Notes under the pieces: generated by a model | What the model was told of the DNA's origin: nothing | Database searches by the model: none | What the model saw: the letters and a program-made list of their open reading frames with translations, nothing else | Position numbers and translations under genes: made by a program | DNA from: Zanthoxylum bungeanum | Taxonomy: Eukaryota; Streptophyta; Magnoliopsida; Sapindales; Rutaceae | Assembly (NCBI GenBank): GCA_019454045.1 | Contig: SKCR01001847.1 | Coordinates: forward strand, 62,001 to 126,000 | DNA length: 64,000 nucleotides | Direction of reading: 5' to 3' | Part shown: positions 8,103 to 55,423 of the stretch, piece by piece | Layout of the letters: every line of letters begins with the position of its first letter | How positions within the stretch are numbered: the first letter of the stretch is position 1

Positions 8103-8103
8103 T

Positions 8104-20906: not shown

Positions 20907-22870
20907 TGACCGGTGTTGTCACACGCGTATAACGCAAGCGCACGTATCGTTCAAGTAGTATAAAAAGTATCGATCCCAATAGGACTTAATACCTAAGCTA
21001 TTAATTTATGAAGTCAAATTAATACAAGTATCTAATGGATTAATTATTTGATTGGATGGTAATTTTAAATTAAAACAAGTAAATAAAACGACTTGAAAAT
21101 AGATTTAGGAAAACTCAATATTAAGAAACTATCCAGGGTTGTGATTCTTTCCAATATCTTTTAAAAGATGAAGTGATTATTTTACGTTTGTGTAATATAT
21201 TAGTTTACTAACCTGGAACACGAAATTTTGAAAAAGCCTTTGTCGGTGGTCAGCTGTAAATACTCAGTGTAACACAATTAAACCATATGTCTATGTCAAC
21301 CAAGTTACCTGAATTCATTAAGATTAAGTTCCAATTGTGGCTACCCCCGCCCGACAAGTATATGTCTATCCTGTAAGGAAATCTATTAAAGGGTTATTTA
21401 TCTTCAAGTAAGATCGTAGGCTATTAAGTCAAAGGCTGAAACCTAAAATTCCTTTGTCAAGTTTATTTTAAGTTTACCTGATCAATCTTATTATGGCCAG
21501 TTAACAAGAAGCATTAAGATTAAGACTTAATAAGTAACCATTTATATTACCCAAACTATAAAATAACCCCTTATAAACCGGTGATATTGGAATTCATCAC
21601 AACCCCAGATAATGGATTTAGTTACGACACATATTTACGACTAGTAAAAACTTAAATAAAATAAAAGATATAAATTAAATATTGAAAAGTAAATGCGTAA
21701 AAGTAAATGCTGAAAAATAAAAATATAAAAGTACAATAAAAGAAAATGCTGGAGTAAAAGGATCCACTTTTATCACTACTATTTTAGATATCTCCCTTAA
21801 TATAATATATTAACTTTGCGTGATATTACCAACCTGTCATATAGGCGGTATCATGATTAAGTCAAATTTATAATTAATTACCAACCGACTAATCAGGCGG
21901 TATCCAGTTTAGTCAGGTTAAGACCAATTTCAATATTTACCAACCGACCAATCAGACGGTATCCTCATTAAGTCAGGTTTTAACTAGTTTATATATTATA
22001 TTTAAAGGAGATTAATCTAAATATTAGTAATAAAAGTTTTACCTTTTACCACAGTAGGGGGGAGTTACCTCCTCATTACTGAAATGTAAATTGCCTGAAG
22101 AGTAAAGAAAGGAAAGTAATGTGCTGAAAAGTAAATTGCATAAAGTAAAGACTGAAAAGTAAAGAAAAGAAAGTACAAATGCGGAAATTAATTACTGAAA
22201 ACTGTAAATAAACAAACAAGATACAATCCTCTAGTATTCTTAAGGAATTACATAGAGAAAAGTATGAGATTACAACTGAAATTTCGAGCTCAATTTATAG
22301 ATACCAATAGGCTTGGCATGTCGCAACGCGTAGCCATTGTGCGTCGCGACGCGCCGTAATTTATGGCGCAAAATACGGAGGTTGTGACACGTGTCCTGGC
22401 GGCGTCGACAACTGAATGATTGTGCTGACGTGGCAATGACGTGGCGATGTCGATTGTCGGCAGCATGTGATGATGACACGTGTCCAGCGCATGTTAGCAT
22501 GATTGGCGCAAGTTAGTACAACGCACGTTAGCATGACACATTTTAGCAAAAACTTCTCTGATTGGTCCACGTGCCCCGGTGCACGTTAGCAGACTCTGGC
22601 GCACATTATCAGGCTCTGGCGCACGTTAGCAGACTCCGGCGCACGTTAGCGGTCGCGACCCAGAGTGTGTGTTGCGACGCGCCAAATGATAGTTGTGCCC
22701 TTTTTGTCTGTTTTTCACTGTTTTGGCCCTGAATCACCTCCAGAGAGTCCTGAAACTTTATTTATCTACAAAATAACACAAAACACATTAAAATATTCAC
22801 AAAACTCAAGAAACTATACAAAATATTAAGTCAAATGAGTGGGAAATAGTGATACATTTACCACTCATCA
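20907..22870 (-). repeat. E1 3' LTR
   Basis: 1964 bp, TGACCGG...CATCA on the plus strand. Includes three tandem units of about 60 bp around 21828-21965 (each with TACCAACC... and GGCGGTATC or a variant), a GC-rich zone 22320-22690 containing repeated GCACGTTAGC words, and on the minus strand a good TATA box CTATAAATTG (22292-22301). The right border is the polypurine tract TTTGGGGGTG (minus strand, 22871-22880). Confidence 0.88.
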
Positions 22871-24208
22871 CACCCCCAAACCTAACATTTTGCTAGTCCT
22901 CGAGCAAAATAATAAAATACAATAACATAAACATCTTTAAAATAAAATTAAACTAAGCCACTTTCGTAGGGATCACAGTTGCATTTAGGGTATGTAACAA
23001 GCTTTTAAACCCCTAGGTGTCCCTAGTGGACGAGTTGTAGTCTCGTGAGGGCTTACAGCGACGATAACCACAAATGTTTTATAAAAATAAAAAGATAATA
23101 AAACTAATGCACACAAAAGCAAAAAGACAAGAGAAAATAGAATAAACGAGTTAGTGACTAATCAGGTGAAACTTCTTATCTAAGTGAATAGTTGTTTTCT
23201 TTCTTTATAAATTACCGAATAAGTAAATTCTCCGATTATTTTTACCATTCTCCATACACACAACCAACAAAATATTAATCAACTCATTGTGCCCACAATA
23301 TTCACAAGTGTAGTTGAAAATAGAGTAATATTTTTATCCCAAAGTTATATCAGAATTCACACATTTGTTTAGGCAATGGAATATTTTTCCGATTTTTTTG
23401 ATTTTATTTATTTATTTATATACAATATCTTTCATCCATGTAGCGAGCTTTAGGCCAGTGACTCCCAAACCAGTTGGATTTAGGGCACCAGATGTTAAGA
23501 TACCCCTACGGACTTAATTACTCAGACTTCAGATATATATATTTTTTGCAATATCCTTGATCCATGTAGAGAGCTTTGGGTCAATGACTCCCAAACCAGT
23601 TGGTTTTAGGGCACTAAGTGTTAAAACACCCATATGGACTTAATTACTCGGATCTTAAATGCCATTTTTTTCCCATCGACTCGGATCTTAGATGCCATTT
23701 TTTTCCCATCGCTTTTTTAAATGTTTCCTCCAATTAAACTATAGCACTGAATATCACAAACTTTTCAATTACATATCATATCCGTATGTTACCATGTATG
23801 TTGATAAAATCTGTTAACTGAGCATATGAAGATTTATTTTAGTCGGTTTTATGGAGAATTAAAAAATTAAATAATTCAAAAGGAAATAAACAAAAATTAA
23901 CTTGTTCCAAACTAGGTTGAGATACTTCTCAGGAGTAGAAATTTCTTACACAGCTATCTCACACCAATTTCACATGATTAATCAAATTAAAAACACAAAA
24001 TATTTTTTTTTTATTTTTTCTAAAGTTTTTCGATTTTTTTTTGAATTTTTCGAAAATTTTGGACTAAAAACAACATAAAAACAAGATACTAGTCAACTAT
24101 TCCCCACCCTCAAACCTAAATGAGACATTGTCCCCAATGTCTTAAAAGTAGAAGAATAGTTTAGAAGATAATACCTGGTTAGTTGAAATTCTACATCTAA
24201 AATGGAAA
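22871..24208 (-). other. E1 3' non-coding region between LOG and 3' LTR
   Basis: No gene. Contains the polypurine tract at its left edge, a hairpin-prone ATTTTGCT/AGCAAAAT pair (22887-22910), a two-copy tandem unit of about 120 bp (23435-23660) with a short hairpin in each copy, and a perfect 8-bp stem AGACATTG/CAATGTCT with loop TCCC (24123-24142) 67 bases past the LOG stop codon. A purine-rich AGGTTTGAGGGTGGGG next to that stem resembles the true polypurine tract. The same arrangement is present in E2 at 29099-30448. Confidence 0.7.
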
Positions 24209-24869
24209 TTAAAGGTTAAGATCCAGATTTATCCGACGCTTCTTACCACGATCATTATCATACCAGTTTATCTTGGAAATGATAGGGTCAATTTGTGGTT
24301 CAAAGGCTAAGATTTGGTCAATTAAATCTAGGGCAGTTCTAGCAGTGAAGATGAGTTCTTTTAAAGGTTTTGACACGAACCCATTTCTTCGGGCATCATC
24401 AAGAAACACACAAAGAAAATCATAAAATCCATCAGCGTTGAACAGTCCAATCGGTTTCTGGTGTATGTTTAAGTTCGCCCAACATAGTAATGTAAAGATT
24501 TCCTCCATTGTACCCAAATAACCTGGAAAAGCAATAAAAGCATCAGCACGGTTAATCATTTCTACTAATCGCTCAGACATATCTGGCACAATTAGTTCCT
24601 CTCTATTTGATGGTCCTATCAGATTCACTTCCTCCAAAGGTTTTGGGATGATTCCCAAGACTTGACTGCCTCCATCTTGTACACTGTACAGCCTTTGAAA
24701 TGATTCCCATTAGTCCAAGATTGCCACCGCCATATACTAAGTGCATATTCCTTTCAGCTAAGACTCGACCCAATTCCTGTGCCGCCGCTACGTATTGTGG
24801 CTTAGTACCAACACTAGTACCACAAAAGTCACATATATTTACAACTCGTCTTCTTGAAGTAGCTTCCAT
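24209..24869 (-). pseudogene. LOG-family protein, E1 copy, frameshifted
   Basis: Homologue of the intact E2 gene (30449-31102). LOG enzymes release active cytokinin base from its nucleoside 5'-monophosphate. The first part (start ATG 24869, MEATSRR) encodes ICDFCGTSVG and YGGGNLGLMG; near 24680 a 7-bp insertion repeating TGTACAG shifts the frame, and the second part continues in another frame with SERLVEM and then FPGYLGTMEE, where the usual PGG has become PGY. The C-terminus RGKKRRINLDLNL is preserved. It lies in sense direction in the retrotransposon, downstream of CRP. Inactivated by the shift and probably by the altered signature. Confidence 0.88.
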
Positions 24870-24938
24870 TTTATATATGTTTCTTTTCTCAAATCTGGAT
24901 GCCTTCAAAAGTGCAATGATGAGTTGAATTTACATCAC

Positions 24939-24950
24939 CTGAAAAGGGAT
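24939..24950 (-). promoter_or_regulatory. possible splice acceptor upstream of E1 LOG
   Basis: Minus strand reads CCCTTTTCAG/GTGATG, a pyrimidine-rich acceptor about 70 bases before the LOG start. The same position in E2 reads CCCTTTTCAG/GTACT. Conservation of a short pyrimidine tract plus AG suggests a spliced subgenomic message, but this is inference. Confidence 0.35.
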
Positions 24951-25136
24951 GAGTAATAATAGCACTAGTACCTACGAAATGACAATTATTAGTTAAACAG
25001 TAAAATGTATCATGGAAGTCAAAAAAGATTTGGATCCTGTCGGAGAAAATAAAAGAAAATAACAAAACAAATCACAATTATTAGGAAAAGACAAAGATAT
25101 ATAATATTTACAAGAAAGTAACGGCTTGATTGTCGT

Positions 25137-25685
25137 CTATGCGTCAAGGACAAGCTTCCCATCCAATTTTCTTATAAATTGGCTAACAGGGTCTTTTAGA
25201 GTCAGATTCCCGAGACTATACTGTTGTCTTTGTTTTCGAAATTGTGTAAATAACATGTGAATTGCATGATGCACATATCCACTGGAATGCGTCTCAAGAG
25301 TCTTAGATATGTCATTCAGAGACTCTTTACTCAAGCCATCCCTAATGAATTTAATTTTATCTTCATGGTTATCAGACACAATTCCTAAAGAACGACAACG
25401 AGTATTACATGTCATGCGAGCACATATATAACAAACACCCATCTTTTTAGCTCTTCTCTTTTTAGCGTAGGTGCTTCTTCCTAAACCAGACAGATGTGAA
25501 ACAAAAGATTCAGAGGACTCACTTGCCAATCGGACCCGTGCTTCAATAATCCAACGAATGTCATTAGGAATACCTTTGATCATCAGTAGTCTCATCCGTT
25601 CCAAGAGACCTTTGTAGACTTTCATCAGATAGTTTTGAGAGAGAGAAGGAAATTGCTTGTGAAGATTTACGAGAACTTCTTCCAT
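25137..25685 (-). CDS. small basic cysteine-motif protein resembling carlavirus-type CRP, E1 copy (open)
   Basis: 182 residues from ATG 25685. That start is chosen because the E2 copy begins at the matching codon; an ATG 18 bases further upstream (25703) lies in an inserted MITE. Seen: an N-terminal helical-looking part with IPNDIRWIIEARVRL, then GLGRSTYAKKRRAKKMGVC, a C-x2-C-x4-C-x3-C cluster (cysteines 85, 88, 93, 97 from this start), and KIKFIRDGLSKESL after it. The order (G-x-S-x-Y-A, basic RRA, G-x-C-x2-C, later R-C) resembles the cysteine-rich nucleic-acid-binding proteins (Pfam Carla_C4 type) of carlaviruses and relatives, though the cysteine spacing is shorter than I expect there. It sits between integrase and LOG in the env position. 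Function unknown; nucleic-acid binding or silencing suppression would be guesses. The C-terminal 75 residues match nothing I know. Confidence 0.6.
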   Translation of the reverse strand: MEEVLVNLHKQFPSLSQNYLMKVYKGLLERMRLLMIKGIPNDIRWIIEARVRLASESSESFVSHLSGLGRSTYAKKRRAKKMGVCYICARMTCNTRCRSLGIVSDNHEDKIKFIRDGLSKESLNDISKTLETHSSGYVHHAIHMLFTQFRKQRQQYSLGNLTLKDPVSQFIRKLDGKLVLDA

Positions 25686-25691
25686 CCTGAA

Positions 25692-26169
25692 TAGGGATGG
25701 CAAATTCTGGATCCGGACCTGGGTCCGGATCCGGAAGAGGTTTTGTTACCCCGGGTCCGGTTCCGGACCTGAGTAAATATTCTCGGCTCAGTTACCCGGA
25801 TTGCTTTTTTTTTTAATTTTTTTTTTAAATTTTAATTGTATTATTTTATATTTATATTTGTATTTTGTCAATTTTATTAGTTTTATTTCAATTCTTTTAA
25901 TTTTTTATTATATTCTATTATATATATATATATATATGCATAATATTTTATATTTTTTTTATTATAATCTAATTTATTATATTTATTATTTATTTTATTT
26001 TTATTCTTTTCCGAACTCGGGTATACCCGGTCCGGACCCGGAATCACCCGGGTCTTAATTTTAAGGACCCGGGTCCGGATTTTTTAATTTCGGACCCGGG
26101 TCTTCTCGGACCCGGGTCGTCCGGGTCCATACGGACCCGGGCCGGGTCCGGGTCTTGTTGCCATCTCTA
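25692..26169. mobile_element. hAT MITE 3, inserted at the start of E1 CRP
   Basis: 478 bp with inverted ends TAGGGATGGCAA and TTGCCATCTCTA, and a perfect 8-bp duplication ATCCTGAA (25684-25691 and 26170-26177). The arms are rich in GGACCCGGGTCCGG-type words and the centre is nearly pure AT. A different family from the MITEs at 4480 and 13128. It lies 6 bases from the CRP start codon and separates it from its presumed leader and splice acceptor. Confidence 0.92.
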
Positions 26170-26410
26170 ATCCTGAAATCTGATTTTACCTACACAATTA
26201 AACACACAAAAATAAAACACACCAAATCACAATATATACACAAATTGCATGGGTTGCCTCCCAGTGAGCGCTAAGTTTAAAGTCGTCAACTAGATATGAC
26301 TGCCCGAACGTTAGGCTAGATCGCTCAAATGATTCTCCCTAGTAGTGTTTGACAGCTGACTGTTAACTTTGAATGTTTTGTTGGTGTTGGGATCAAGCAA
26401 CTCAGCAGCT
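26170..26410 (-). other. E1 end of pol and spacer before CRP
   Basis: Contains decayed C-terminal integrase coding sequence (about 26300-26410; minus-strand traces like the KTFKVKN and VKHYWGES found intact in E2) and a short leader with an acceptor-like GATTTCAG at 26173-26180 on the minus strand. Confidence 0.55.
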
Positions 26411-27697
26411 CTATATGGTAAAACATGAGTGACTACAAATGGACCTGGACCATCTTGATTTCAAATTTCCAGGGAAAAGTTTCAACCTTGAATTGTATAA
26501 CAACACATGTATCATTGGTTCCAGTTGTCTGCGCATAATTTTTCGATCATGCCATTTCTTGGTCTTTTCTTTGTATAATCTGGCTTTCTCATAAGCCTGT
26601 AGGCGAAACTCCTCCAATTCGTTGAGTTGATGAAGCCGTTTCTCTCCTGAAGCTTGTGGATCAAGATTCAACTTCTTCAGTGCCCAGTACGCCTTCTGTT
26701 CAAGCTCAACTGGCAGATGGCACGCTTTCCCAAACACCATTCGATATGGGGACATACCAATGGGTGTCTTGTAAGCTGTCAGGTATGCCCATAATGCGTC
26801 ATCCAATTTTGTAGACCAGTCTCTCATTGTTGATCCAATGGTTCTCTCCAAGATTCTTTTGATCTCCATGTTCGAAACTTCAACATGTCCATTTGACTGT
26901 GGATGATAAGCAGTGGAAACTTTATGAGTAACTCTATATTTGGATAGAAGTGCATCAAAGTATTTTTTGCAGAAGTGTGTACCACCATCACTGATAAGCG
27001 CCCGAGGTGTTCTGAAGCGAGTGAAAATATTATTTTTAAGGAATTTAATCACCATTTTTGAATTATTTGATGGCAGTGCTATTGCTTCAACTATTGCTTC
27101 AACCTATTTGGAGACGTAGTCTACTGCAACTAGTATGTACGGGTTTTCGATTGATGGAACAAAGGGTCCTATGAAATCAATCCCCCACACATTGAATATC
27201 TCAACTTCCAGGATTTTTTGTAGAGGTCTTTCATTTCTTCTCGAAATATTTCCCGTTCTCTGGAACCTGTCACATTGAAGAGCAAAAAGATAAGTATCTT
27301 TAAAAAGAGTGGGCCATAACAAACCTGATTGTAGGAATTTGGCTGCAGTTTTATTCCCGCTGAAGTGTCCGCCATATGGTGACGAATGATAGTGTTGCAA
27401 GAAACTATTGACCTCCTCATGTGGAACACATCGTCTCAGTAATTGATCAACATAATATTTGAATAGGTACGGCTCATCCCATACATAATGCTTGACTTCT
27501 TTGAAGAATTTCTTCCGTTGCTGAGTTGTCCATTCCAACGACCATTTTCCTGATACTATGTAGTTGACATAGTCATCATACCAAAGGACATCATGCTGTT
27601 TCATGGCAAATAACTGTTCATCTGGAAAATTTTCTTTGATTGTCAATTCTTTGACAGTTGTTTCTCCATTCTGGAGCCTCGATAAGTGATCTGCCAC
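26411..27697 (-). pseudogene. E1 pol: integrase (and end of RNase H region)
   Basis: Two open pieces separated by a break near 27056-27103. The first (27104-27697) has MADHLSRLQNGE, an HHCC-like segment (HYHSSPYGGHFSG ... LFALQCDRFQRTGN) and the first catalytic aspartate in VWGIDFIGPF. The second (26411-27055) carries the second aspartate in [10 protein letters not shown], the glutamate in [17 protein letters not shown], and [18 protein letters not shown], all as in Athila integrases. The C-terminal part is shifted. Catalyses DNA insertion in an active element; here broken. Confidence 0.88.
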
Positions 27698-27721
27698 TTG
27701 GTTTTATATGTTTTTCCTGTC

Positions 27722-28806
27722 TCAGATTTCCACGTCAAATTCTTGCTGTAGAAGTATCCATCGGATCAATCTGGGTTTGGCATCTTTCTTCACGATCAGG
27801 TATTTCATTGTTGAATGATCTGTGGAGACCACCACTTTGGGACCCAGCAGATAAGATCCAAATTTATCAAAAGCAAACACAACTGTGAGCAACTCCTTTT
27901 TCAGTTGTTGTATAGTTGAGTTGAGCTTCATTTAGAGTTCTTTTGGATTAGTAAATGATATGGAAAATATTTGCTTTACGTTGTCCCAAAACTGCACCTA
28001 CAGCAAAATCACTAGCATCGCACATCACTTCAAATGGAATGGTCCAGTGTGGTGCTACTATGATGGGGGCAGAAATCAGCTTCTGTTTTAAGATCTCAAA
28101 AGCTTCGTGGCATTCTTTGGTGAAGTTGAAAGGCACATATTTCTCCAGAAGATTGCACAAAGGTTTAGCAATCTTTGAAAAGTCTTTGATAAATCTCCTG
28201 TAAAAGCCAGCATGTCTGAGAAAACTCTGAATCCCTTTAACAGATGTTGGTGGAGGTATTTTTTTAATTGTCTCGATCTTTGCTTTTTCTACCTCGATTC
28301 CCTTTTGTGAAATCTGATGTCCCAGGTTTATTCCTTCTTGCACCATGAAGTGACATTTCTCCCAGTTGAGTACTAGGTTGGTATCTTCATACATTTGTAG
28401 CACTTGTTCCAGATTTTGCAAGCAGTAGTCGAAAGAATCTCTAAACACAGAGAAATCATCCATGAAAACCTCCATACTTTGTTCCAGCATGTCTGAGAAG
28501 ATAGCCATCATGCAACGTTGAAATGTAGCAGGAGCATTACATAGTCCAAATGGCATCATGAGGAAAGCAAAAGTACCATACGGACATGTAAAAGTGGTTT
28601 TCTCCTGATCTTCTGGGGTGATGGCTATCTGATTATACCCTGAATATCCATCCAGAAAGTAATAGAATTCATGTCCCGCCAATCTGTCTAGCATCTAGTC
28701 AATGAATGGTAGCGAAAAATGATCTTTTCTTGTTGCTTTGTTCAGCTTCCTGTAGTTCATGCATACTCTTCATCCAGTCATCGTTCTTGTTGGAATTAAC
28801 TCGTTC
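27722..28806 (-). pseudogene. E1 pol: reverse transcriptase and RNase H, truncated at the N-terminus
   Basis: The open piece 27948-28694 holds FLDGYSGYNQI, TFTCPYGTFAFLMMPFGLCN and the catalytic box VFMDDFSVF (FxDD as in Athila-type enzymes), followed by GHQISQKGIEVEKAKI and the connection SFLRHAGFYRRFIKDFSKI. RNase H starts in VMCDASDFAVGAVLGQR and continues after a shift in 27722-27931. Upstream, 28695-28806 encodes a decayed ELIPTRTMTG and YRKLNKATRKDHFSLPFID, with in-frame stops, and is cut at 28806 where E2 LTR sequence begins. Confidence 0.88.
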
Positions 28807-29098
28807 TGATTGGTCCACGTGCCCCGGTGCACGTTAGCAGACTCTGGCACACATTAGCAGACTCCGGCGCACGTTAGCGGTCGCGACCCAGAGTGTGTGT
28901 TGCGACGCGCCAAATGATAGTTGTGCCTTTTTTGTCTGTTTTTCACTGTTTTGGCCCTGAATCACCTCCAGAGAGTCCTGAAACTTTATTTATCTACAAA
29001 ATAACACAAAACACATTAAAATATTCACAAAACTCAAGAAACTATACAAAATATTAAGTCAAATGAGTGGGAAATAGTGATACATTTACCACTCATCA
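28807..29098 (-). repeat. E2-side 3' LTR fragment
   Basis: Begins in mid-LTR at TGATTGGTCCACGTGCCCC and runs to CATCA, followed by the polypurine tract CACCCCCAAACC. It is almost identical to 22557-22870 of E1, apart from fewer copies of a 20-bp GCACGTTAGCAGACT-type unit. Beyond the LTR end, the two elements differ much more often. Confidence 0.85.
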
Positions 29099-30448
29099 CA
29101 CCCCCAAACCTAACATTTTACTAGTCCTCGAGCAAAACAATAAAATACAATAACATAAAAATCTTTAAAATAAAATTAAACTAAGCCACTGTCGTAGGGA
29201 TCACAGTTCCATTTAGCGTATGCAACAAGCCTTTAAACCCCTAGGTGTCCCTAGTGGACGAGTTGTAGTCTCGTGAGGGTTTACAACAATGATACGCACA
29301 AACATTTTACAAAAGTAAAAAGGTAGTAAAACTAATGCACACAAAAGCAAAAAGACAAGAGAAAAGAGAATAAAGAAATTAGTGACTAATCAGGTGAAAC
29401 CTCTACTCCAAGTTACCAGTTGTTTTCTTTCTTTTTAAATTACCGAATAAGTAAATTCTCCGATTATATTTACCATTCTCCATATACACAGCCAACAAAA
29501 TATTAAACAACTCATTTTTGCCCACAACAGTCATAAGTGCAGTTGATAAGAGAGTAATATTTTTGTCCTAAAGTTCTATCAGATTTCACACATTTTTTGC
29601 AGCAATGGAATAATTTTTCTGATTTTTCTGATTTTTTCCTTTGATTTTTCTCTATTTTTTATTTATATACAATATCTTCCATCTATGTAACGAGTGTTAG
29701 GTTGGTGGCTCCCAAACCAGTTGGTTTTAGGGCACCAGGTGTTAAGACACCCCTACGGACTTAATTACTCAGACTTCAGAGATATATATATATTTTTGCA
29801 GCATCTTTGATCCATGTAGCGAGCTTTGGGCCAGTGACTCCCAAACCAGTTGGTTTTAGGGCACCAGGTGTTAAAACACCCTTACAGACTTAATAACTTG
29901 GATCTTAGATTTTTTTTTTTTTTTTACTCCATTGCTTTTTGAGATGCTTCCTCCAATTTAACTAGAGCACTGAATATTACAAACTTTTCAATTACAGTTC
30001 ATGTCCGTATGTTTCTATGTATGTTGATAATATCTGCTAACTGAACATATGAAGATCCATTTTAGTCCGTTTTATGGAGAATTTACAAATTAAATAATTT
30101 AAAAGGAAATAAAAAAAAATTAACTGATTTCGAAAATAGGCTTGAGATACGTCTCAGGAGTGGAAACTCCTTACTCAGCTATCTCTTACCAATTCCACCT
30201 TTTTAGTCAAAATAAAAAAAAAAAAAACACAAAAACACAAAATATTTTTGTAATTTTTGAAAAATTTTCAATTTTTTTTTTGTATTTTTCGAAAAATTTT
30301 GGAGTAAAAACAACACACAAACTAAAAAAGAGGTACTGATCAACTAATTTCCTCCCCCAAACCTAAATGAGACATTGTCCCTAATGTCTTAAACAGTAGA
30401 AGAAGAGTTTAGAAGATAATACCTGGTTAGCTGAAATTCTACAAGAAA
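29099..30448 (-). other. E2 3' non-coding region between LOG and LTR
   Basis: Counterpart of 22871-24208. Two tandem units of about 125 bp (29680-29910) each hold a short hairpin, GGTGTTAAGACACC (29738-29751) and GGTGTTAAAACACC (29867-29880). The stem after the LOG stop is AGACATTG-TCCC-TAATGTCT (30370-30389), next to a purine-rich AGGTTTGGGGGAGG. No gene. Confidence 0.7.
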
Positions 30449-31102
30449 TTAAAGGTTAAGATCCAAATTAATCCTACGCCTCTTACCACGATCATCATCG
30501 GACCAATTTATCTTTGAAATGATAGGGTCAACTCGTGGTCCATAGGCTATGAGTTGGTCTATTAGATCCGGAGCAGTTCTGGCAGTAAAGAGAAGTTCTT
30601 TCAAAGGTTTCGACACGAACTCATTTCTCCGAGCATCATCAAGAAACACACAAAGAAAATCATAAAATCCATCAACGTTGAGCAGTCCAATTGGTTTCTG
30701 GTGTATGTTCAGGTTCGCCCAAGATAGTACTATAAGAATTTCCTCCAATGTGCCCAAGCCACCTGGCAAAGCAATAAAAGCACCAGCACAGTTAATCATT
30801 TCCACTAGTCGTTCAGACATACCTGGCATGATCAGTTCCTCTTCGTTTGATGGTTCAATAAGATTTGCTTCTGCCAAGGGTTTTGGAATGATTCCCAAAA
30901 CGTGACTGCCTCCTTCCTGTACGGCCTTTAAAACGATCCCCATTAGTCCAAGATTTCCTCCGCCATATATTAAGTGCATATTCCTTGCAGCTAAGACTCG
31001 AGCCAATCCCTGTGCTGCTTCTACGTATTGTGGTTTAGTACCAACACTACTACCGCAAAACACACAGATGTTCTCAATTTGTCTTCTTGAAGTGGCTTCC
31101 AT
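30449..31102 (-). CDS. LOG-family cytokinin phosphoribohydrolase-like protein carried by the retrotransposon (open)
   Basis: 217 residues, the usual LOG length, with no stop. LOG enzymes convert cytokinin riboside 5'-monophosphates to active free-base cytokinin in cytosol and nucleus. Seen: Rossmann-type start ICVFCGSSVG (residues 12-21), YGGGNLGLMG (46-55), GSHVLGIIPKPL (65-76), the family signature PGGLGTLEE (113-121), then NIHQKPIGLLNVDGFYDFL. Instead of the common M-x-x-RK loop it has MSERLVEM, so it may belong to a distant LOG subclass. The tail is unusual: basic RGKRRR (205-210) then INLDLNL, an L-x-L-x-L pattern like EAR repression motifs. Sense orientation, downstream of CRP, between integrase and 3' LTR. 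Probably captured from a host LOG gene, without introns. Activity is untested. Confidence 0.87.
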   Translation of the reverse strand: MEATSRRQIENICVFCGSSVGTKPQYVEAAQGLARVLAARNMHLIYGGGNLGLMGIVLKAVQEGGSHVLGIIPKPLAEANLIEPSNEEELIMPGMSERLVEMINCAGAFIALPGGLGTLEEILIVLSWANLNIHQKPIGLLNVDGFYDFLCVFLDDARRNEFVSKPLKELLFTARTAPDLIDQLIAYGPRVDPIISKINWSDDDRGKRRRINLDLNL

Positions 31103-31157
31103 TTTTTAAGTATTTCTTTCTCAACTCCGGATGCCTTCAAAAGTGCAATGACGGGCT

Positions 31158-31180
31158 GAATTTATAGTACCTGAAAAGGG
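31158..31180 (-). promoter_or_regulatory. TATA-like box and splice acceptor before E2 LOG
   Basis: Minus strand: CCCTTTTCAG/GTACTATAAATTC. The CAG could be a 3' splice site for a spliced LOG message (also present in E1), and CTATAAATTC, about 60 bases before the ATG, could be a TATA box (lost in E1, where the sequence reads GATGTAAATTC). Confidence 0.35.
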
Positions 31181-31360
31181 TGAGTAAAAATAGCACAAGT
31201 ATCTTCCAGAGGACGATTAGTAGCGAAATAATATCGTGATAGTCAAAAAGGTCTGGATCCTGTTAGAGAAAATAAAAGAAAACAACAAAACAAATTAAAA
31301 TTATTAAGAAAAGACAAAGAGATATAATATTCACAAGAAAAGTAACAGCTTGATTGACGT

Positions 31361-31909
31361 CTATGCGTCGGGGACAAGCTTCCCATCCAATTTTCTTATA
31401 AATTGGCAAACAGTGTCTTTTTGAGTCAGATTCCCGAGACTTAACAGTTGTCTTTCTTTTTGAAATTGTGTATGTAATTTGCGAAAGGCTATGTGAACAT
31501 ATCCACTGGGATGCGTCTCAAGAGTCGAAGATATATCATATAAAGACTCCTTACTCAAGCCATCCCTAATGAATTTAATTTTATCTTCGCGATTATCAGA
31601 CACCATTCCTAAAGAACGACAACGAGTATTGCAATTTCAGCGTGCACATTTATAACAAACACCCATTTGCTTAGCTCTACGTTTCTTTGCATAGGTGTTT
31701 TTTCCAAAACCAGGCAGATGTGAAATAAAAGAGTCATAAGACTCACCTATCAATCGGACCCGTACTTCAATAATCCAACGAATGTCAGTAGGAATACCTT
31801 TGATCATCAATAATCTCATCCGTTCCAAGCGAGCTTTGTATACTTTCATCAGAGATATTTGAGGGAGAGAAGGAAATTGCTTGTGAAGATTTGCGAGAGC
31901 TTCTTCCAT
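31361..31909 (-). pseudogene. carlavirus-CRP-like small basic protein, E2 copy, with stop
   Basis: Same gene as 25137-25685. The frame opens at ATG 31909 (MEEALANLHKQF) and encodes IPTDIRWIIEVRVRL, YAKKRRAKQMGVCYKCAR, then a TGA at 31634-31636, where the E1 copy has a methionine codon. After the stop the same frame continues with CNTRCRSLG, KIKFIRDGLSKESL and a homologous C-terminus to 31361. Here the second residue pair reads CYKC rather than CYIC. The two copies differ throughout, but mostly in ways that keep the frame. The stop falls inside the cysteine cluster, so it should remove function unless read through. Confidence 0.7.
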
Positions 31910-31921
31910 CTTGAAATGACT

Positions 31922-32050: not shown

Positions 32051-32470
32051 TTAAGCTGGATCTGAAAGTGTAACACTTTCTTTTTGTCGTTCAAATGATT
32101 CTCCCCAGTAGTGCTTGACACGCTTGTTTTTAACCTTGAAAGTTTTGTTGGAGTCAGGATCATGTATCTCAACGGCTCTATCTGGTAAAACTTTGGTGAT
32201 CACAAATGGACCTGACCACCGTGATTTTGACTTCCATGGGAAGAATTTCACCCTTGATTTGTTTAACAGTACCTTCTGCCCTGGTTCCAGTTGTATGCGC
32301 ACTAACTTTTCATCATGTCTTTTCTTGCCCTTTTCTTTGTACAATTTGGCATCCTCAAAAGGCTGATTGTGAAATTCCTCCAATTCGTTGAGTTGGTGGA
32401 ACTTTTTCTCTTATGTTGCTTGTAGAGCAAGAATTGGCTCTTTCAGTGCAAAAGATGTTTTATCTTTAGG
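32051..32470 (-). pseudogene. E2 integrase C-terminus joined to the protease end
   Basis: Encodes [36 protein letters not shown] and VKNKRVKHYWGESFERQ, the C-terminal integrase part of Athila elements. Upstream at about 32470 the sequence passes directly from the protease-side text (CQLPVEPKDKT) to integrase text (FALKEPILALQ...), so reverse transcriptase, RNase H and the integrase core were deleted. One in-frame stop near 32411. Confidence 0.78.
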
Positions 32471-33199
32471 CTCCACAGGTAATTGACATGTTTTAAGTTT
32501 GTCAGTAGAACTTTGCATTGCATTGAAGTTCTGAATGGTACTGTGTATCATATCAAGTTTGAAACATTCCTCCTTCTTTTCATCATCTGGGAAATTCATG
32601 GCCTTGAAAACGTTGAATGTTACTTCTTGGTCCTATACCCTCATGGTTAATTCTCTTTTTTGTACATCAATAATGGTTCGACCTGTAGCCAAGAATGGTC
32701 TCCCGAGGATGATTGGCACGTCTGCGTCTTCCTCCATATCAAGGACAATAAAATCTGTTGGGAAAATGAATTTGTCAACCTTGACCAGCACATCTTCAAC
32801 TACACATCTCGGAAATACGAGCGTTCTATCAGCAAGTTGTAGTGAGACTTAAGTTGGCATTGTTTCTCCAATCTGTAATTTCCTAAAAATAGAAAAAGGC
32901 ATCAAGTTAACACTAGCACCTAAATCACACAGAGCCTTACCGAAGTCATGTTCTCCTATGGTGCAAGGAAGAGTGAAACTGCCAGGATCTTTCAACTTTG
33001 GGGGAAGTTTCCTCTGAATGATAGCGCTGTATTCTTCTGATAATGCTACTGTCTCGTAATCTCCCAATCTTCGCTTTCGTGAAAGAATGTCTTTCATGAA
33101 TTTGGCATAGCTGGGCATTTGTTCCAACGCTTCTGGAAATGGAATGTTGATATGTAGCTTTTTGAAGATTTCCGGGAACCGAGAAAACTGCTTGTCCAA
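32471..33199 (-). pseudogene. E2 protease region
   Basis: The open piece 32849-33199 holds KLHINIPFPEALEQMPSYAK, RKLPPKLKDPGSFTLPCTIG and the active site CDLGASVNLMP (D-L-G-A instead of D-S/T-G, as is usual in Athila proteases). The sequence then breaks and continues decayed through 32600-32850, ending in the open piece 32411-32599 with MNFPDDEKKEECFKLD. Confidence 0.82.
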
Positions 33200-33247
33200 T
33201 TTGTTCTTCTGAAGACGTTGAGGAAAATGTGGAGGTGGAATGATTTG

Positions 33248-34753
33248 TTATTTTTCCTTTGCTTCTTTTTCCTCCATCTGTTGCTTTGTTTCTTTTGGAA
33301 TTTCCTCAGCAGCTGTTTTGGCTCCAACATCTTTTTTGATTTCAGTACCATTTTTTAACATGATGGCATGACATTGTTCCTTCCCAATGTTTCTTGGATT
33401 TGGCTCTGTGCTGCTAGGAAGGGTACCTGGCGGTCTATAACTCTGAGCATTTGCCAGTTGTCCAATTTGATTCTCCAGTGCTTTAATAGAAGCAAATTGA
33501 CCTTGAATTAATGTTGTTTGGGATTGAAACATAGCATCATATCTTGCTGCTTGAGATTGAAACATAGTATCATATCTTGCTTCTTAAGAGTCGTGTTTTG
33601 CTTCTATCTTTTTCAAGTGGGTCAACACTTTTGTTATTCATGGTTCATTTGCCTGCTCCTGGATTTTGTTCTATTGTTGGAATCCAGGTGGTGGATAGTT
33701 CTGCTGTTGGCCTGAATTGTTTCTCCATGATAAATTAGGATGATTCCTCCACCCTGGGTTGTAGGTGTTGGAATATGGATTGTTCCCCTGTCTGTTGAAA
33801 TTGTTGATAAAATTCACCGTTTCTTCAAGTTGGTTCGACTCTGGTGCTCCTCCATATGGTGAACTTCTGGATCCAGTGGTAAGAGTCTCCATGAATTTAC
33901 ATATCTGATCTAGCTTGGTGTTGACTGTTGTATTGGCTCCACTTTCATAAATTCCTGCAATTCTTTAGATCATGCTCCTTTCTGTTTGCCACAAGGAATT
34001 GTTGTTGGCCATTTCTTCGATTAGGTCCCAGGCTTGATCTTCTCCTTTTGCCATCAAGGCTCCTCCAGCAGCAGCATCAATTGTGGTTCTCATTATTCCA
34101 GAACCCCATTATAGATTGTTTGGACTTGAAGCCATTTTGGAATCTCATGGTGATGACATTTCCGGAGCAAATCTTTATACCTTTCCCAAGCTTCGCAGAG
34201 GGATTCTGAATCTTGTTGTACAAAAGATGTGATGTCATTCCTCAGTTTTCCGGTTCTGGCTGGTGGAAAGTACTTTGCAAGAAATTTGGTGGCTAAAGTG
34301 TTCCAAGTTGTGATGGAACCTGCTGGTAGTGAATGTAGCCAAGCTTTAGCTCTGTCCTTCAAGAAGTATGGGAAAACACGCAATCTCATTGCTTCTTCAG
34401 CTTCTCGGTTGTAATTGAAAGTGCCGCAAACTTCCAGGAAGTTGCTGATGTGGGAATTAGGATCTTCAGTTGCATTCCCCCCAAACTGAACTGACTGCTG
34501 AATCATCTGAATGCATGTTTTGATGTCACCTGCATTTGCTGGTAAGGGAGGAAGTACAATGTAAGAAATAAGTCTGTCAACCACCGGAATGGTTCTGTCT
34601 CGAATGGGAATTGGTGGTGCAACGTTCAAAGGTTCAGGTTCCATGTTGACTAAAGTTTCTTGGCCTTCTCGTATATCCCTTCTCAACTGTCTGATGGTTT
34701 TTTCAATTTCCTGGGTCAAGCGGTCGAAGTTCAAAGCTTCTGGTTCGTCTCAT
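33248..34753 (-). pseudogene. E2 gag, several breaks
   Basis: Nucleocapsid/capsid polyprotein of the Athila type. The start is ATG 34753 (MRRTRSFELRPLD, shared with E1), with a shift soon after. The main piece 34093-34734 has the retrotransposon gag core: FLEVCGTFNYN, MRLRVFPYFLKDRAKAWLHS, ATKFLAKYFPPART and ESLCEAWERYKDLLRKCPH-like text. 33671-33892 has SNTYNPGWRNHPNLSW, and 33248-33565 has ALENQIGQLA and a 33-bp tandem duplication that repeats MFQSQ. Stops and shifts separate the pieces. Confidence 0.83.
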
Positions 34754-34850
34754 GTAGTTTCTGAGAACCTGAAACACAAGAAAACAAAAACAATAAGTAA
34801 AAAGAAATTAGATACAAGTAACGTATCTAACCCCAAAACTAATAGTGAAA

Positions 34851-36592
34851 CACACACGTATAACGCAAGCGCATGTATCGTTCAAGTAGTATAAAAATAT
34901 CGATCCCACGAGGACTTAATATCTAATCTATTAATTTTATGAGGTCAAACGATTACTAGTATCTAACAGGTTGTTTGATTGATTTGAAATGGTGACGATT
35001 CTAAATTTAAAAACAAGTAAATAAAATTGTTCACTATCTAGGGTTGTGATTTCTTCCAATATCATTTTAAAGATGAAGTGGTTATTTATATTTGTGTAAT
35101 AAATCGGTTTACTAATCTGGAACACTAAATTATGCAAAAGCCTATGTCGATGGTCAGACGCAAATACTCAGTTTAACCCAATTGAACCATATGTCTATGT
35201 CAACCAAATTATCTGGATTCATTAAGTTTAAGTTCCAATTATGGCTACCCCCGCCCGACATGTATATGTCTATCCTGTAAGGAAATCTATTAAAGGGTTA
35301 TCTATCCTCAAGGAAGATCATGGGCTATTAAGTCTAAGGCTGAAATCTAAAATTCATTTGTCAAGTTTATTTTAGATTTACCACATCAATCTTATTAGTG
35401 GCCAATTAAAAGGACGCATTAAGCTTAAGACTTAATAAGTAAACCTTTAAATTACCCAAACTATAATTTAACCCCTTATAAACCGGTGATATTGGATTTC
35501 ATCACAACCCCAGATAATTGACTTAGTTACGACACATATTTACGGGTTGTAAGAAAAACTTAAATAAAATAAAAGACATAAAGTAAAATACTGAAAATTA
35601 AATACTGAAAATTAAATACTGAAAAGTAAATGCTGAAAGTAAATGCTGGAATTAAATACTGAAAATTAAATGCTGAAAAGTAACTGCTGAAAGTAAATTA
35701 CTGAAAAGTAAATTGCTGAAAAGTAAATTGCTGAAAAGTAAATTGCTGGAAGTAAATTACTGAAAAGTAAAAACTGAAAATTAAAGAAAGAAAAGTACTG
35801 TGCGTAAAAGTAAATTGCGGAAAGTAAAAACTGAAAAGTAAAGAAAAGAAAGTGCGAAATCGGAAATTAATTACTGAAAGCTGTAAATAAACAAATCAGA
35901 TACAATCTTCTTAGTATTCTTAAGGAATTCCTTAGAAGAAAGTATGAATTTTACAAATGAAATGGCTTGGTATTTATAGGCAAAATTTTGCCTCCATCAA
36001 ATCATCCACCAAATCAATTATTAATTGCTCCACTAATTGCTCCACCAAATCCATTATTAATTGCTCCACTAATCTCTTATCATGTTTGGTGATGATTTGA
36101 TAACTTTTATTATTTTATTATTAATTTATTTTTTTCTTTGAAAATGATTGAAAGTGGCTTTAATAATTACATACAACACACTTCTGGATGGTTCATCAAT
36201 TTCGGGCATGACATCGTCAGAATTCGAATTTATTTTGTCTTTAAAAGTTGTAGATATTTGAGTCTTCTTTAATCTGGAACTTGAATCAGCTCAATTCAAT
36301 ATCGGAGTAAAAAGGTATGCAAAAAATACGACAGATACGCAAAACTAGAATTTCCAAAACTGCACTTCGTCAAAAACGTCCTTTCAAATTTCCAATCTCC
36401 AAAATTAAACTATCAAGTCCAATAATTGCCCTTATTTGACACATATTTCATCCTAAATGATTTCATTGAGACCCGATATTATTTTATCTGCAAAATAAAC
36501 TAAAAAACATCAAAACGTTCATCAAACCCGAGAAACTAAAAAAAATATTAAGTTAAAGGGGCGGTAAATATTGATATATTTTCCGCTCATCA
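34851..36592 (-). repeat. E2 5' LTR, different LTR subtype
   Basis: The left part (CACGTATAACGCAAGCG, tRNA-adjacent) matches E1 LTRs, but the right half does not: the GC-rich GCACGTTAGC zone of E1 is replaced by AT-rich sequence with ATTGCTCCACTAA repeats (36000-36085). Minus-strand TATA box TATAAATA at 35971-35978. The outer base pairs and PBS are deleted at the left edge; the right edge ends in CATCA at 36592 and abuts Copia-2. Confidence 0.8.
35580..35840. repeat. minisatellite in the E2 LTR
   Basis: More than ten head-to-tail copies of a 13-18 bp unit close to CTGAAAAGTAAATTG. E1 LTRs show only a few scattered copies (21680-21720, 22080-22170). Confidence 0.85.
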
Positions 36593-37378: not shown

Positions 37379-37633
37379 AATCTCTCACTTGGCCTATAGC
37401 CAATCACTCAAGTATCTAACACCTGAACCATGTACATGTCGCTCAAACTTTTGCTGAGGAATAGCTTTCGTCAGCGGATCTGCAATGTTGTTATATGATG
37501 CGACCTTCTCGATCTTCACATTGCCACGATGTATGATCTCACGAATCAGATGGAAATGTCGAAGTACATGCTTGGATCGTTGATGAGACCGCGGTTCCTT
37601 AGCCTGCGCTATAGCCCCGTTATTGTCACAATA

Positions 37634-39150: not shown

Positions 39151-39151
39151 T

Positions 39152-40123: not shown

Positions 40124-40254
40124 AATATAAAGACCATTATTAATATCAGCACTACATATTTATAAATCATTTTTATAAACAAAACACACAGTGTTTCTGA
40201 ATACAAAAGTATACCCACATTGGGTTAAACAAGATACATAACTAATATTCCTAG

Positions 40255-43581: not shown

Positions 43582-43593
43582 GCTCTGATACCA
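43582..43593 (-). other. Copia-2 primer-binding site
   Basis: TGGTATCAGAGC on the minus strand, initiator-tRNA type, one base from the LTR. Confidence 0.9.
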
Positions 43594-43594
43594 T

Positions 43595-45458: not shown

Positions 45459-46241
45459 CATGCTTCTTTCTGTTGGCCACAAGGAATTATTGTTGGCCAT
45501 TTCTTCAATTAGGTCCCAAGCCTGATCTTCTCCTTTTGCCATTAGAGCTCCTCCAGCAGCAGCATCGATTGTGGTTCTCATTATTCCAGAAAGTCTATTA
45601 TAGAAAGTTTGGACTTGTAGCCACTTTGGAATCTCATGGTGAGGACATTTCCGGAGTAAATCTTTGTACCTTTCCCAAGATTCGAAGAGGGATTCTGAGT
45701 CTTATTGCACAAAGGATGTGATATCATTCCTCAGCTTTGCAGTTCTGGCTGGTGGAAAGTACTTTACAAGAAATTTGGTGGCTAGAGCGTTCCAAGTTAT
45801 GATGGAACCTGCTGGTAATGAATGTAGCCAAGCTTTAACTCTGTCTTTCAAGGAATATGGAAAAACACGCAGTCTCATTACTTCTTCAGTCGCTCGGTTG
45901 TAATTGAAAGTGCCGTAAACTTCCAGGAAGTTGCTGATGTGGACATAAGGATCTTCAGTTGCATTCACCCCAAACTTAACTGACTGTTGAATCACCTGAA
46001 TGTTTGTTTTGATGTCACATGTATTTGATGGTAAGAGAGGAAGTACAATAAAGGAAATGAAGCTGTCAACCACCGGAATGGTTCTGTATCTAATAGGAAT
46101 TGGTGGTGCAACTTCCAAAGGTTCAGATTCCATGTTGATCAGTGCTTCTTGGCCTTCTCGTCTTTCCTTTCTCAACTATCTAATGGTTCTTTCAATCTCT
46201 GGGTCAAGCGGTCGGAGTTCAAAGCTTCTGGTTCGTCTCAT
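45459..46241 (-). pseudogene. E1 gag, N-terminal part
   Basis: Starts at ATG 46241 (MRRTRSFELRPLDPEIERTI) with a stop shortly after, then an open piece 45702-46175 with FLEVYGTFNYN, RVFPYSLKDRVKAWLHS and FLVKYFPPART. Continues broken to 45459 (EDQAWDLIEEMANNN), where Copia-2 begins. The counterpart in E2 is 33980-34753. Confidence 0.85.
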
Positions 46242-46343
46242 GTAGTGTCTGAGAACCTGAAAAAAAAAACAGAAATAATAAATAAAAAGAAATTAGAGAC
46301 AAGTAAAGGTATCTAACCTCAAAACTAATAGTGAAAGATAAAT

Positions 46344-46364
46344 AAGTCCTCGGTAACGGCGCCA
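46344..46364 (-). other. E1 primer-binding site
   Basis: Minus strand TGGCGCCGTTACCGAGGAC, the Athila/Gypsy-type site (close to TGGCGCCGTTGCCGGGGA), seven bases inside the LTR border. Confidence 0.85.
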
Positions 46365-46371
46365 AAAACTT

Positions 46372-48256
46372 TACCGGTATTATCACACGCGTATAACGCA
46401 AGCGCACGTATCGTTCAAGTAGTATAAAAAGTATCGATCCCACGAGGACTTAATACCTAAGCTATTAATTTATGAAGTCAAATTAATACAAGTATCTAAT
46501 GGATTGATTATTTGATTGGATGGTGATTTTAAATTAAAACAAGTAGATAAAACATGTTGAAAGTAGATTTAGGAAAACTCAATATTAAGAAGCTATCCAG
46601 GGTTGTGATTCTTTCCAATATCTTTTAAAAGATGAAGTGTTTATTTTATGTTTGTGTAATATATTAGTTTACTAACCTGGAACACGAAATTCTGCAAAAG
46701 CCTATGTCGATGGTCAGATGCAAATACCCTATGTAACCCAATTAAACCATATGTATATGTAAACCAAGTTACCTGAATTCATTAAGATTAAGTTCCAATT
46801 GTGGCTACCCCCGCCCGACAGGTATATGTTTATCCTATAAGGAAATCTATTAAAGGGTTATCTATCCTCAAGGAAGATCGTGGGCTGTTAAATCTAAGGC
46901 TGAAACCTAAAATTTATTTGTCAAGTTTATTTTAAGTTTACCTAATCAATCTTATTAATGGCCGGTTAACAAGAAGCATTAAGCTTAAGACTTAATAAGT
47001 AAACCTTTATATTACCCAAACTATAAAATAACCCCTTATAAACTGATGATATTGGAATGCATCACAACCCCAGATAATAGATTTAGTTACAACACATATT
47101 TACGGCTAGTAAAAACTTAAATAAAATAAAAGATATAAATTAAATATTGAAAAGTAAATGCGTAAAAGTAAATGCTGAAAAGTAAAAATATAAAAGTACA
47201 ATAAAAGAAAATGCTGGAGTAAAAGGATCCACTTTTATCACTACTATTTTAGATATCTCCTTTAATATAATATATTAACTTTGCGTGATATTACCAACCT
47301 GTCATATAGGCGGTATCATGATTAAGTCAAATTTATAATTAATTACCAACTGACTAATCAGGCGGTATCCAGTTTAGTCAGAATAAAACCAATTTCAATA
47401 TTTACCAACCGACCAACCAGGCGGTATCCTCATTAAGTCAGGTTTTAACTTGTTTATATATTATATTTAAGGGAGATTAATCTAAATATTGGTAATAAAA
47501 GTTTTACTTTTTACCTCAGCAGGGGGAATTACCACCTCATTACTGAAAAGTAAATTTGTGAAGAGTAAAGAAAGGAAAGTATTGTGCTGAAAAGTAAATT
47601 ACAGAAAGTAAAGACTGAAAAGTAAATAAAAGAAAATGCAAATACGTAAATTAATTACTGAAAACTGTAAATAAACAAACAAGATACAATCCTCTAGTTT
47701 TCTTAAGGAATTACATAGAGAAAAGTATGAGATTACAACTGAAATTTCGAGCTCAATTTACAGGCACCAATAGGCTTGGCTCGTCGCGATGCGTAGCCAT
47801 TGCGAGTCGCGACACGCCGTAATTTGCGGTGCAAAATACGGAGGTTGTGACACATGTCCTTGAGGCATCGACAGTTGAATGATTGTGCTGACGTGGCAAT
47901 TACGTGGCGATGTTGATTGTCGGCAGCAGGTGATGATGACACGTGTCTGGCGCATGTTAGCACGACGTATTTTAGCAAAACTTATATGATTGGTCCATGT
48001 GTCCCGGTGCACGTTAGCAGAATCCGACATACCTTAGCGATCGCGACCCAGAGTGCGTGTCGCGACGCACCAAATGACAGTTTTGCCCTTTTTGTATGTT
48101 TTTCACTGTTTTTGCCCTGAATCACCTCCAGAGAGTTCTGAAACTTTATTTATCTACAAAATAAAATAAAACACATTAAAATATTCACAAAAATCAAGAA
48201 ACTATACAAAATATTGTCAAATGAGTGGGAAATAGTGATACATTTACCACCCATCA
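46372..48256 (-). repeat. E1 5' LTR
   Basis: 1885 bp, from TACCGGTATTATC (first bases mutated from TGACCGG) to CATCA. Homologous to 20907-22870 with many substitutions and some indels; contains the three 60-bp units (47290-47440) but fewer GCACGTTAGC repeats. The TATA box of the 3' LTR is altered here (TGTAAATTG at about 47752-47762). Confidence 0.88.
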
Positions 48257-55421: not shown

Positions 55422-55423
55422 GT

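Follow-up and report, generated by a model that had tools for sequence, protein, structure and literature searches.

LOG-type genes inside plant Ty3/gypsy elements have been described before. A YgdH (LOG-type) domain is recorded in gypsy consensus sequences of Citrus sinensis, C. clementina and Populus trichocarpa in the relevant section of PMC9289625, which cites Steinbauerova et al. 2011 for a LOG-type domain in gypsy elements. The elements analysed here likewise carry a LOG-type gene within a plant gypsy element, and the idea that such an association would be new is not supported. Populus LOGs are also among the best 120 homologues of the LOG described below. The passages of PMC9289625 dealing with the Citrus and Populus domain give no CRP, gene pair, EAR-like tail, lineage or position, and its main text contains neither the term "EAR motif" nor the term "TOPLESS". 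While the LOG gene in gypsy elements is thus already known, we found no earlier literature report of an element CRP, a CRP-LOG pair or an EAR-like LOG tail.

Extra 3' sense ORFs (env-like, aORF-3S) are described for Athila, Bagy-2 and other elements in the sections of PMC7264820 and PMC11728184 that treat them. In contrast to those env-like ORFs, neither product of the pair looks like an env-like or transmembrane protein, and both belong to recognisable families with Pfam matches to soluble proteins. As its counting rule is given, the 2019 survey in PMC6317226 included extra ORFs only if they had at least 250 codons, so genes of 182 and 217 codons would have been passed over; 21.4% of the extra-ORF proteins in that survey resembled any known domain. 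Since both extra genes here are of recognisable families, one of them a well-characterised enzyme family, their job is directly testable. A further likeness is the AlkB-type RNA demethylase of Phalaenopsis gypsy elements, in which an additional ORF coding for an enzyme domain has become a fixed part of a plant gypsy lineage; as reported in the corresponding part of PMC9289625 that case comprises one gene in one orchid genus with activity shown in vitro, whereas any activity of the CRP-LOG pair is predicted from sequence.

Organization of the elements in the window

The window, the whole 64,000-nt stretch of DNA that was analysed, comes from the 3.96 Gb genome of Zanthoxylum bungeanum and contains two tandem Athila-like Ty3/gypsy elements, E1 and E2. 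All features lie on the minus strand of the window, on which CRP and LOG are in sense orientation relative to gag-pol. E1 consists of a 5' LTR (34838..36592, 3' end approximate), a gag with a Retrotrans_gag match (34093..34734), a protease region (32460..33230) placed by position and by a 10-residue motif that we take to be that of a protease, an integrase C-terminal remnant (32051..32420), the CRP gene (31361..31909), the LOG gene (30449..31102) and, downstream of LOG, a PPT (29110-29099) with a truncated LTR start (28805..29110). It is a deletion derivative in which gag and protease run straight into the integrase C-terminus, with no RT, no integrase core and no PBS stretch of the kind present in E3. 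This third related element (45459..48256) has an LTR, a PBS-like stretch TGGCGCCGTTACCGAGGA and a gag start, and is cut off at 45459.

E2 retains reverse transcriptase/RNase H (27948..28694) and integrase (26411..27697; H2C2 27697-27104, core and C-terminus 27055-26411), followed, shortly before CRP, by a hAT-like insert of 478 bp (25692..26169) whose terminal inverted repeats are near-perfect over 12 bp and which has an 8-bp duplication TTCAGGAT, then by the CRP gene (25137..25685), the LOG gene (24209..24870), and a PPT (22882-22871) with the 3' LTR (22870 to about 20907; together 20907..22882). The E1 5' LTR and the LTR start at the E1 3' end are an unmatched pair (72.5% over 160 nt), and the latter is similar to the E2 3' LTR at 97% (family D5). 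This LTR comparison led us to reject two clean insertions; E1 and E2 are a rearranged tandem.

The presence of the CRP and LOG pair in both E1 and E2, in the order CRP then LOG and between integrase and PPT/3' LTR, was confirmed. Each copy has one gene open and the other broken: in E1 LOG is open (217 aa) while CRP, of the same length as in E2, is interrupted by a single stop at codon 91; in E2 CRP is open (182 aa) while LOG is frameshifted, its 662 nt being no multiple of 3. Positions 22557-25691 and 28805-31915 match at 85%, so the pair is common to both copies and not a chance insertion, in agreement with the earlier observation of the same two sense genes in the same order.

A PBS for tRNA-Asp is typical of Athila, and the stretch that follows the E3 LTR is presumably a match to tRNA-Asp. 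A 14-residue integrase motif which we take to be linked to Athila is present or nearly so in the integrases of E2 and of L069, a stray plant contig, and together with this motif the sense extra ORFs between INT and PPT agree with assignment to Athila. An extra archaeal-type RNase H is given as a mark of Tat in PMC6317226, and a scan of two ORFs from the E2 pol, which represent part of a broken pol, detected none.

Conservation of the gene order across the genome

Among 40 genomic loci picked as the best-scoring LOGs, CRP lay just upstream of LOG in 37, with a spacing of 236-282 nt; one row aligned as CRP, L042, is no CRP (62% identity). When loci were picked by CRP, LOG followed in 18/20. Integrase stands directly before CRP in L069 and is fused directly ahead of CRP in a Rhamnella gene model. 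These data show that INT-CRP-LOG-PPT-LTR is the order characteristic of the family in the Z. bungeanum genome, and the family carrying the cassette is of the Athila-like Ty3/gypsy type and present in high copy number. The synteny at both sets of loci rules out that the pair is a chance insertion or host DNA flanking the elements.

Nine of the 40 LOG-picked loci had no RT or integrase core yet contained both cassette genes, showing that this subfamily is multicopy. Retention of the cassette in multicopy derivatives that have neither RT nor integrase core suggests that it pays its way. No LOG was detectable in L069, which has INT and CRP, and the two genes therefore need not work together.

Selection on CRP and LOG

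In the comparison between element copies that the sequence-only reading had proposed, dN/dS between E1 and E2 was 0.24 (interval 0.15-0.36) for LOG and 0.51 (0.29-0.94) for CRP, both intervals being below 1. With the synteny at 37/40 and 18/20 loci these values uphold its view of a cargo inherited by the family, CRP then LOG: other copies with both genes exist, dN/dS is not near one and the pair is not unrelated flanking DNA. For LOG we obtained 0.29 (0.18-0.49) between sets after subtraction and 0.36 within the CRP-picked set, the latter leaving out two of the 20 stretches (L062 and L063) whose alignment to LOG was too poor. A value of 0.126 from the LOG-picked set is biased low by the choice of best-scoring LOGs and was set aside; the estimates used in its place come from E1 versus E2 and from the CRP-picked loci.

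As yardsticks among element copies, dN/dS was 0.18 for the INT core (25 loci) and 0.22 for RT. The INT core value was used in place of a first INT figure of 0.52, an alignment artefact with frameshifting indels in 40/40 rows, which arose because the reference ran past the frame change and many loci had no core. CRP gave 0.446 at the same 25 loci, and this estimate was preferred to one of 0.466 from 39 rows that included the non-CRP row L042. Constraint on CRP (0.45-0.51) is thus weaker than that on INT and RT. As dN/dS was below 1 in all comparisons run, both CRP and LOG look to be under purifying selection.

That both genes were instead captured long ago and have since been carried as functionless cargo would fit the many broken copies: none of the 20 CRP-picked LOGs was intact, 13/39 CRP rows were open (with L042, which is no CRP, counted among the 39), and in the window E1 and E2 have one gene broken apiece. 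However, this explanation is hardly credible in view of the dN/dS values, which disfavour neutral passengers, of a constant CRP length, exactly 182 aa in 54/120 homologues, of a CRP identity of 55-81% across distant plants, and of the motif-specific conservation of the LOG tail described below.

The CRP gene

The E2 CRP matched the Pfam families Carla_C4 (2e-6, 28.1 bits, curated cut-off 20.9) and Viral_NABP (3e-6, 27.7 bits, curated cut-off 23), and the E1 piece scored 25.8 bits with Carla_C4 and 18.3 bits, below the cut-off, with Viral_NABP. At E<=1e-3, 63/76 members matched Carla_C4 and 63/76 Viral_NABP. Like carlavirus CRPs and viral NABPs, the protein has a basic run ahead of a four-cysteine finger; in contrast to the carlavirus CRP it has longer flanks, is borne on a retrotransposon and differs in cysteine spacing, which is C-x2-C-x4-C-x3-C in 103/120 homologues and C-x2-C-x12-C-x4-C as quoted for one carlavirus in PMC8839810. 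For this reason we name the gene Carla_C4-like and not a carlavirus CRP. CRP relatives were absent from our scans of viral_contigs, the CRP profile had no match in the PDB at E<=1, and the predicted structure had a low mean pLDDT of 62. The CRP ties retrotransposons to plant RNA viruses.

One explanation for the CRP is that it takes the place of a nucleocapsid and serves as a nucleic-acid chaperone in packaging or in reverse transcription, with LOG having a separate role. The need for such a substitute would come from the lack of a CCHC zinc knuckle in gag: none was found in the E1 gag-protease, in the E3 gag piece or upstream of LOG in the nine RT-less loci. The basic run and C4 finger, the retention of CRP in loci without RT and integrase core and the occurrence of CRP without LOG in L069 are consistent with such a role. 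It is nonetheless unlikely, as the viral NABPs that CRP resembles work outside the capsid, according to the discussion of them in PMC8839810, and CRP is less constrained than INT at the same 25 loci.

The LOG gene and its C-terminal tail

LOG is a single ORF; in E1 it matches Lysine_decarbox (1.3e-33), contains the motif PGGLGTLEE, and over residues 4-203 closely matches LOG-family chains from Arabidopsis whose structures have been solved. The best 120 homologues of E1 LOG (element-type LOGs) were compared with 120 sampled host LOGs. PGGxGTxEE was present in 103/120 element-type LOGs, and the catalytic arginine context together with the PGG motif was complete in only 85/120 versus 114/120 host LOGs, a shortfall partly due to truncated rows. 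The predicted protein retains the catalytic signature of the enzyme family.

While sharing fold family and catalytic motif with plant host LOGs, which are cytokinin riboside 5'-monophosphate phosphoribohydrolases, the element-type LOGs form one clade (100/100) apart from those sampled, on a branch of 0.77, and differ in their tail. A basic run with a C-terminal LxLxL was found in 90/120 element-type LOGs and 0/120 host LOGs; the E1 C-terminus is KRRRINLDLNL, its tail INLDLNL containing LDLNL. LxLxL is the EAR motif consensus (PMC9956375), with which the element-type tail agrees at the sequence level. Leucine occupied positions -5, -3 and -1 in 93, 98 and 94 of 102 rows, and positions -4 and -2 were variable. 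Conservation of the leucines with variable residues between them suggests a binding motif, and the tail is a concrete, falsifiable hint of a transposon recruiting host corepressors. LxLxL is short as a motif.

Two other readings of LOG were weighed. It could be an ordinary cytokinin-activating enzyme whose tail binds no corepressor and instead serves as a tag for nuclear localisation or stability, with the element benefiting from locally higher cytokinin and increased cell division and CRP being independent. The widespread PGGxGTxEE motif, the match to the Arabidopsis chains and the low LOG dN/dS between E1 and E2 all fit an ordinary enzyme, but the leucine pattern points to binding and the tail is missing from every sampled host LOG, which makes this account somewhat unlikely. 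Alternatively LOG could have no enzyme role and serve as an EAR-bearing nuclear adaptor or corepressor decoy; tail conservation and the long branch from the sampled host LOGs would agree with this, although an adaptor would not need the PGGxGTxEE motif, and we regard it as quite improbable.

Proposed function of the cassette

Our tentative preference, held at somewhat below an even chance, is for a selected cassette that pairs a nuclear nucleic-acid-binding CRP with a LOG that is probably cytokinin-making and has a corepressor-binding tail. Both proteins would be made from spliced LTR-driven RNAs. The acceptor-like tracts before CRP and LOG were conserved no better than surrounding bases in this young family, so splicing is something that we infer. 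The basic run and C4 finger point to CRP as a putative nuclear nucleic-acid-binding protein, LOG may still turn cytokinin riboside 5'-monophosphates into free cytokinin, and its tail would direct it into the nucleus and into contact with TOPLESS-type corepressors. Acting together on the host nucleus, the two proteins could keep cells dividing and/or disturb repression, which would favour expression and spread of the element. The suggestion of the sequence-only reading that the element may influence division of meristem cells or silencing is likewise hypothetical; that reading did not include the EAR-like tail, the RT-less subfamily or the occurrence of CRP without LOG.

That a cytokinin-activating enzyme may have been remade as a nuclear, TOPLESS-recruiting, EAR-tailed protein and paired with a virus-type CRP is a possible but doubtful extension of this model. 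If true, it would represent a retrovirus-style accessory-gene system in plants with hormone output and host corepressors as its targets, and one gene family common to plant RNA viruses and retrotransposons.

The longest contigs of CRP match P0030 and LOG match P0228 were both 8723, and those of CRP match P0025 and LOG match P0229 were both 4511; these equal values hint at linkage of the two genes in other species.

Organization of E1 and E2

E1 and E2 are related Ty3/gypsy elements arranged in tandem on the minus strand of the window, from a plant with a 3.96 Gb assembly. E1 (36592 to about 28805, minus strand) comprises a 5' LTR, gag, a protease region, an integrase C-terminal remnant, CRP (31909-31361, minus strand, one stop at codon 91), LOG (31102-30449, minus strand, open), the polypurine tract (PPT) and the initial 300 nt of an LTR. 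E2 (28694 to about 20907, minus strand) contains RT/RNase H, H2C2 and integrase, a hAT-like insert, CRP (25685-25137, minus strand, open), LOG (24870-24209, minus strand, frameshifted), the PPT and a roughly 2-kb LTR. Both elements are incomplete: E1 has no RT or integrase core and is missing the PBS stretch present in E3, a third related element (45459-48256, minus strand), and the own 5' LTR and gag of E2 are not in place. The 5' LTR of E1 and the partial LTR at the opposite (3') end are unmatched (72.5% over 160 nt). The tentative assignment to Athila follows the position of the extra genes and hallmarks of that lineage, the integrase motif and a putative tRNA-Asp-like PBS in E3.

The 478 bp hAT-like insert (25692-26169) lies directly upstream of E2 CRP and has the ends TAGAGATGGCAA...TTGCCATCCCTA and the duplication TTCAGGAT. 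A tandem doubled block of about 120-140 nt was also observed in the LOG-PPT interval of both elements (23406-23673 and 29655-29923).

The CRP-LOG cassette in the Z. bungeanum genome

A search of the whole genome with E1 LOG returned 70,268 first-look candidates, of which the best 150 were scored, and the resulting counts are lower bounds. At least 150 scored matches were obtained, E1 itself at 100% and the rest at 89-93% identity, with an internal stop absent from about 130 of the 150 (counted by eye). Forty of these matches, in pieces of up to 6.25 kb, formed the LOG-picked set. CRP was found 236-282 nt upstream of LOG in 37/40 and was missing from L030, which ends at a contig end, L034 and L042; an upstream integrase match was present in 34/40 and a PPT/LTR-start probe match in 38/40. 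A CRP-picked set of 20 loci was taken from 150 scored CRP matches among 45,262 candidates, and LOG lay downstream of CRP in 18 of them. The two-gene cargo that the sequence-only reading had ascribed to the element family is thus a family trait in this genome.

Nine LOG-picked loci (L009, L019, L026, L027, L028, L032, L038, L047 and L048) resembled E1: gag, protease and the integrase C-terminus were present, RT, H2C2 and the integrase core gave no match, and all nine shared the E1 junction between protease and integrase C-terminus. LOG was open in 8/9, a figure biased by picking on LOG, and CRP in 4/9. A derivative needing borrowed RT and integrase functions is therefore multicopy and has kept both accessory genes.

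Selection on the accessory genes

Nei-Gojobori counts with codon bootstrap intervals gave, between E1 and E2, dN 0.098, dS 0.410 and dN/dS 0.24 (0.15-0.36) for LOG, and dN 0.121, dS 0.236 and dN/dS 0.51 (0.29-0.94) for CRP, so that the comparison between copies suggested earlier yielded ratios below 1 for both genes. LOG dN/dS was 0.36 in 18 CRP-picked loci, which were not selected on LOG quality, and 0.29 (0.18-0.49) between the LOG-picked and CRP-picked sets after within-set change was subtracted; the value from the LOG-picked set alone (0.126) is biased low. At 25 loci having the integrase core dN/dS was 0.18 for integrase and 0.446 for CRP, and RT gave 0.22 at 20 loci. The cassette genes are under purifying selection. 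Counting against function, LOG was intact in none of the 20 CRP-picked loci and CRP was open in only 13 of 39 rows (one of the 39 not being CRP). Inserted copies decay, as is expected of transposons, and the constraint is in the lineage.

LOG enzyme signature, C-terminal tail and origin

LOG matched Lysine_decarbox and solved Arabidopsis LOG-family chains. There were 7,754 homologues at E<=1e-10, the best 120 of which, including proteins from Populus, Xanthoceras, Reevesia and Diplodiscus, are termed element-type by similarity and not by genomic context. The comparison set was 120 host LOGs, collected by searching with two aligned Arabidopsis LOG-family chains. PGGxGTxEE was present in 103/120 element-type vs 114/120 host rows, and together with the conserved arginine context in 85/120 vs 114/120; judged by these motifs, the element LOG has kept the catalytic signature.

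A basic run followed by LxLxL ended 90/120 element-type LOGs vs 0/120 host LOGs, the E1 ending being KRRRINLDLNL. Among the 30 without this tail, 9 were below 200 aa and 6 had the variant ending LDIDLNR. Across the 102 rows in which two or more basic residues precede the end, leucine occupied -5, -3 and -1 in 93, 98 and 94 rows, with mainly S/D/T/N at -4 and R/S/N/H at -2. The ending RGKRRRINLDLNL was found in 33 of 42 LOG rows of the Z. bungeanum genome. At the level of sequence the tail is conserved. It is EAR-like: in the account in PMC9956375, EAR repression motifs most often take the form LxLxL and most often lie at the C-terminus, and extended LxLxLxL forms are described.

A 55-row tree split the 30 element-type from the 25 host LOGs with support of 100/100 and a branch of 0.77. 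A closer host donor is possible, since the host sample was drawn from two chain types, LOG3 and LOG8. E1 LOG is a single uninterrupted ORF and host LOG genes contain introns, a difference that would imply capture of an RNA copy.

CRP features and candidate roles

The window CRP matched the Pfam families Carla_C4 and Viral_NABP, as did 63/76 CRP members in each case at E<=1e-3 (13 without a match in each). The CRP query returned 220 proteins at E<=0.01; among the best 120, 95 had the basic run and 103 the finger C-x2-C-x4-C-x3-C which follows it, and 54 were exactly 182 aa long. This spacing differs from the carlavirus spacing as it appears in PMC8839810. The predicted structure was of low confidence. 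A nucleocapsid-like role for CRP is a serious rival explanation, since E1 gag-protease, the E3 gag piece and the nine RT-less loci showed no CCHC knuckle.

In the mechanism which we favor, both accessory proteins would act in the nucleus. CRP and LOG would be made from spliced RNAs; acceptor-like tracts precede both genes, with conservation no better than that of surrounding bases. The element LOG would release cytokinin, its tail may bind a corepressor, and the element would benefit from this action.

Occurrence in other plants and earlier reports

Named CRP homologues among the best 120 of 220 came from Xanthoceras, Acer, Rhamnella and Orobanche. The Rhamnella gene model P0107 is a fusion of an integrase C-terminus with CRP, and the Orobanche model P0106 has a stretch like the element protease region, then CRP. 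Locus L069 (DAIEQH010000041.1, 1-3330), filed as a Candidatus Nomurabacteria MAG, is, judged by its content, probably plant sequence that was binned as bacterial: a 466-aa plant-type gypsy integrase ORF is followed by full-length CRP, 65% identical. No LOG match was found in the remaining 983 nt of this 3330 bp contig. CRP can therefore be present with LOG absent, and LOG has probably been added in some lineages.

The LOG half is not new, since PMC9289625 describes YgdH (LOG-type) domains in Citrus and Populus gypsy consensuses; the main text of that paper contains no occurrence of EAR motif or TOPLESS. We found no report of CRP in retrotransposons, or of the CRP-LOG pair, in the open-access literature searched. 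As described in PMC6317226, a 2019 reference survey counted extra ORFs at >=250 codons only, a minimum by which both genes would be passed over.

Other LTR elements in the window

Two elements of another family lie at 1-10017 (LTR pair 1-1430 / 8582-10017, 95%) and 36593-45458 (LTRs around 36593-37377 / 44672-45456, 94%); neither gave a tblastn match to CRP or LOG. A further, apparently young LTR element (54664-60518) has 758-bp LTRs 99.3% identical, a 5-bp duplication ATACT, a PBS-like stretch TTGGCGCCGTCTGTGGGGA 3' of its 5' LTR and internal GC-rich tandem repeats (57189-59485) whose unit lengths are about 44 and 82 bp.
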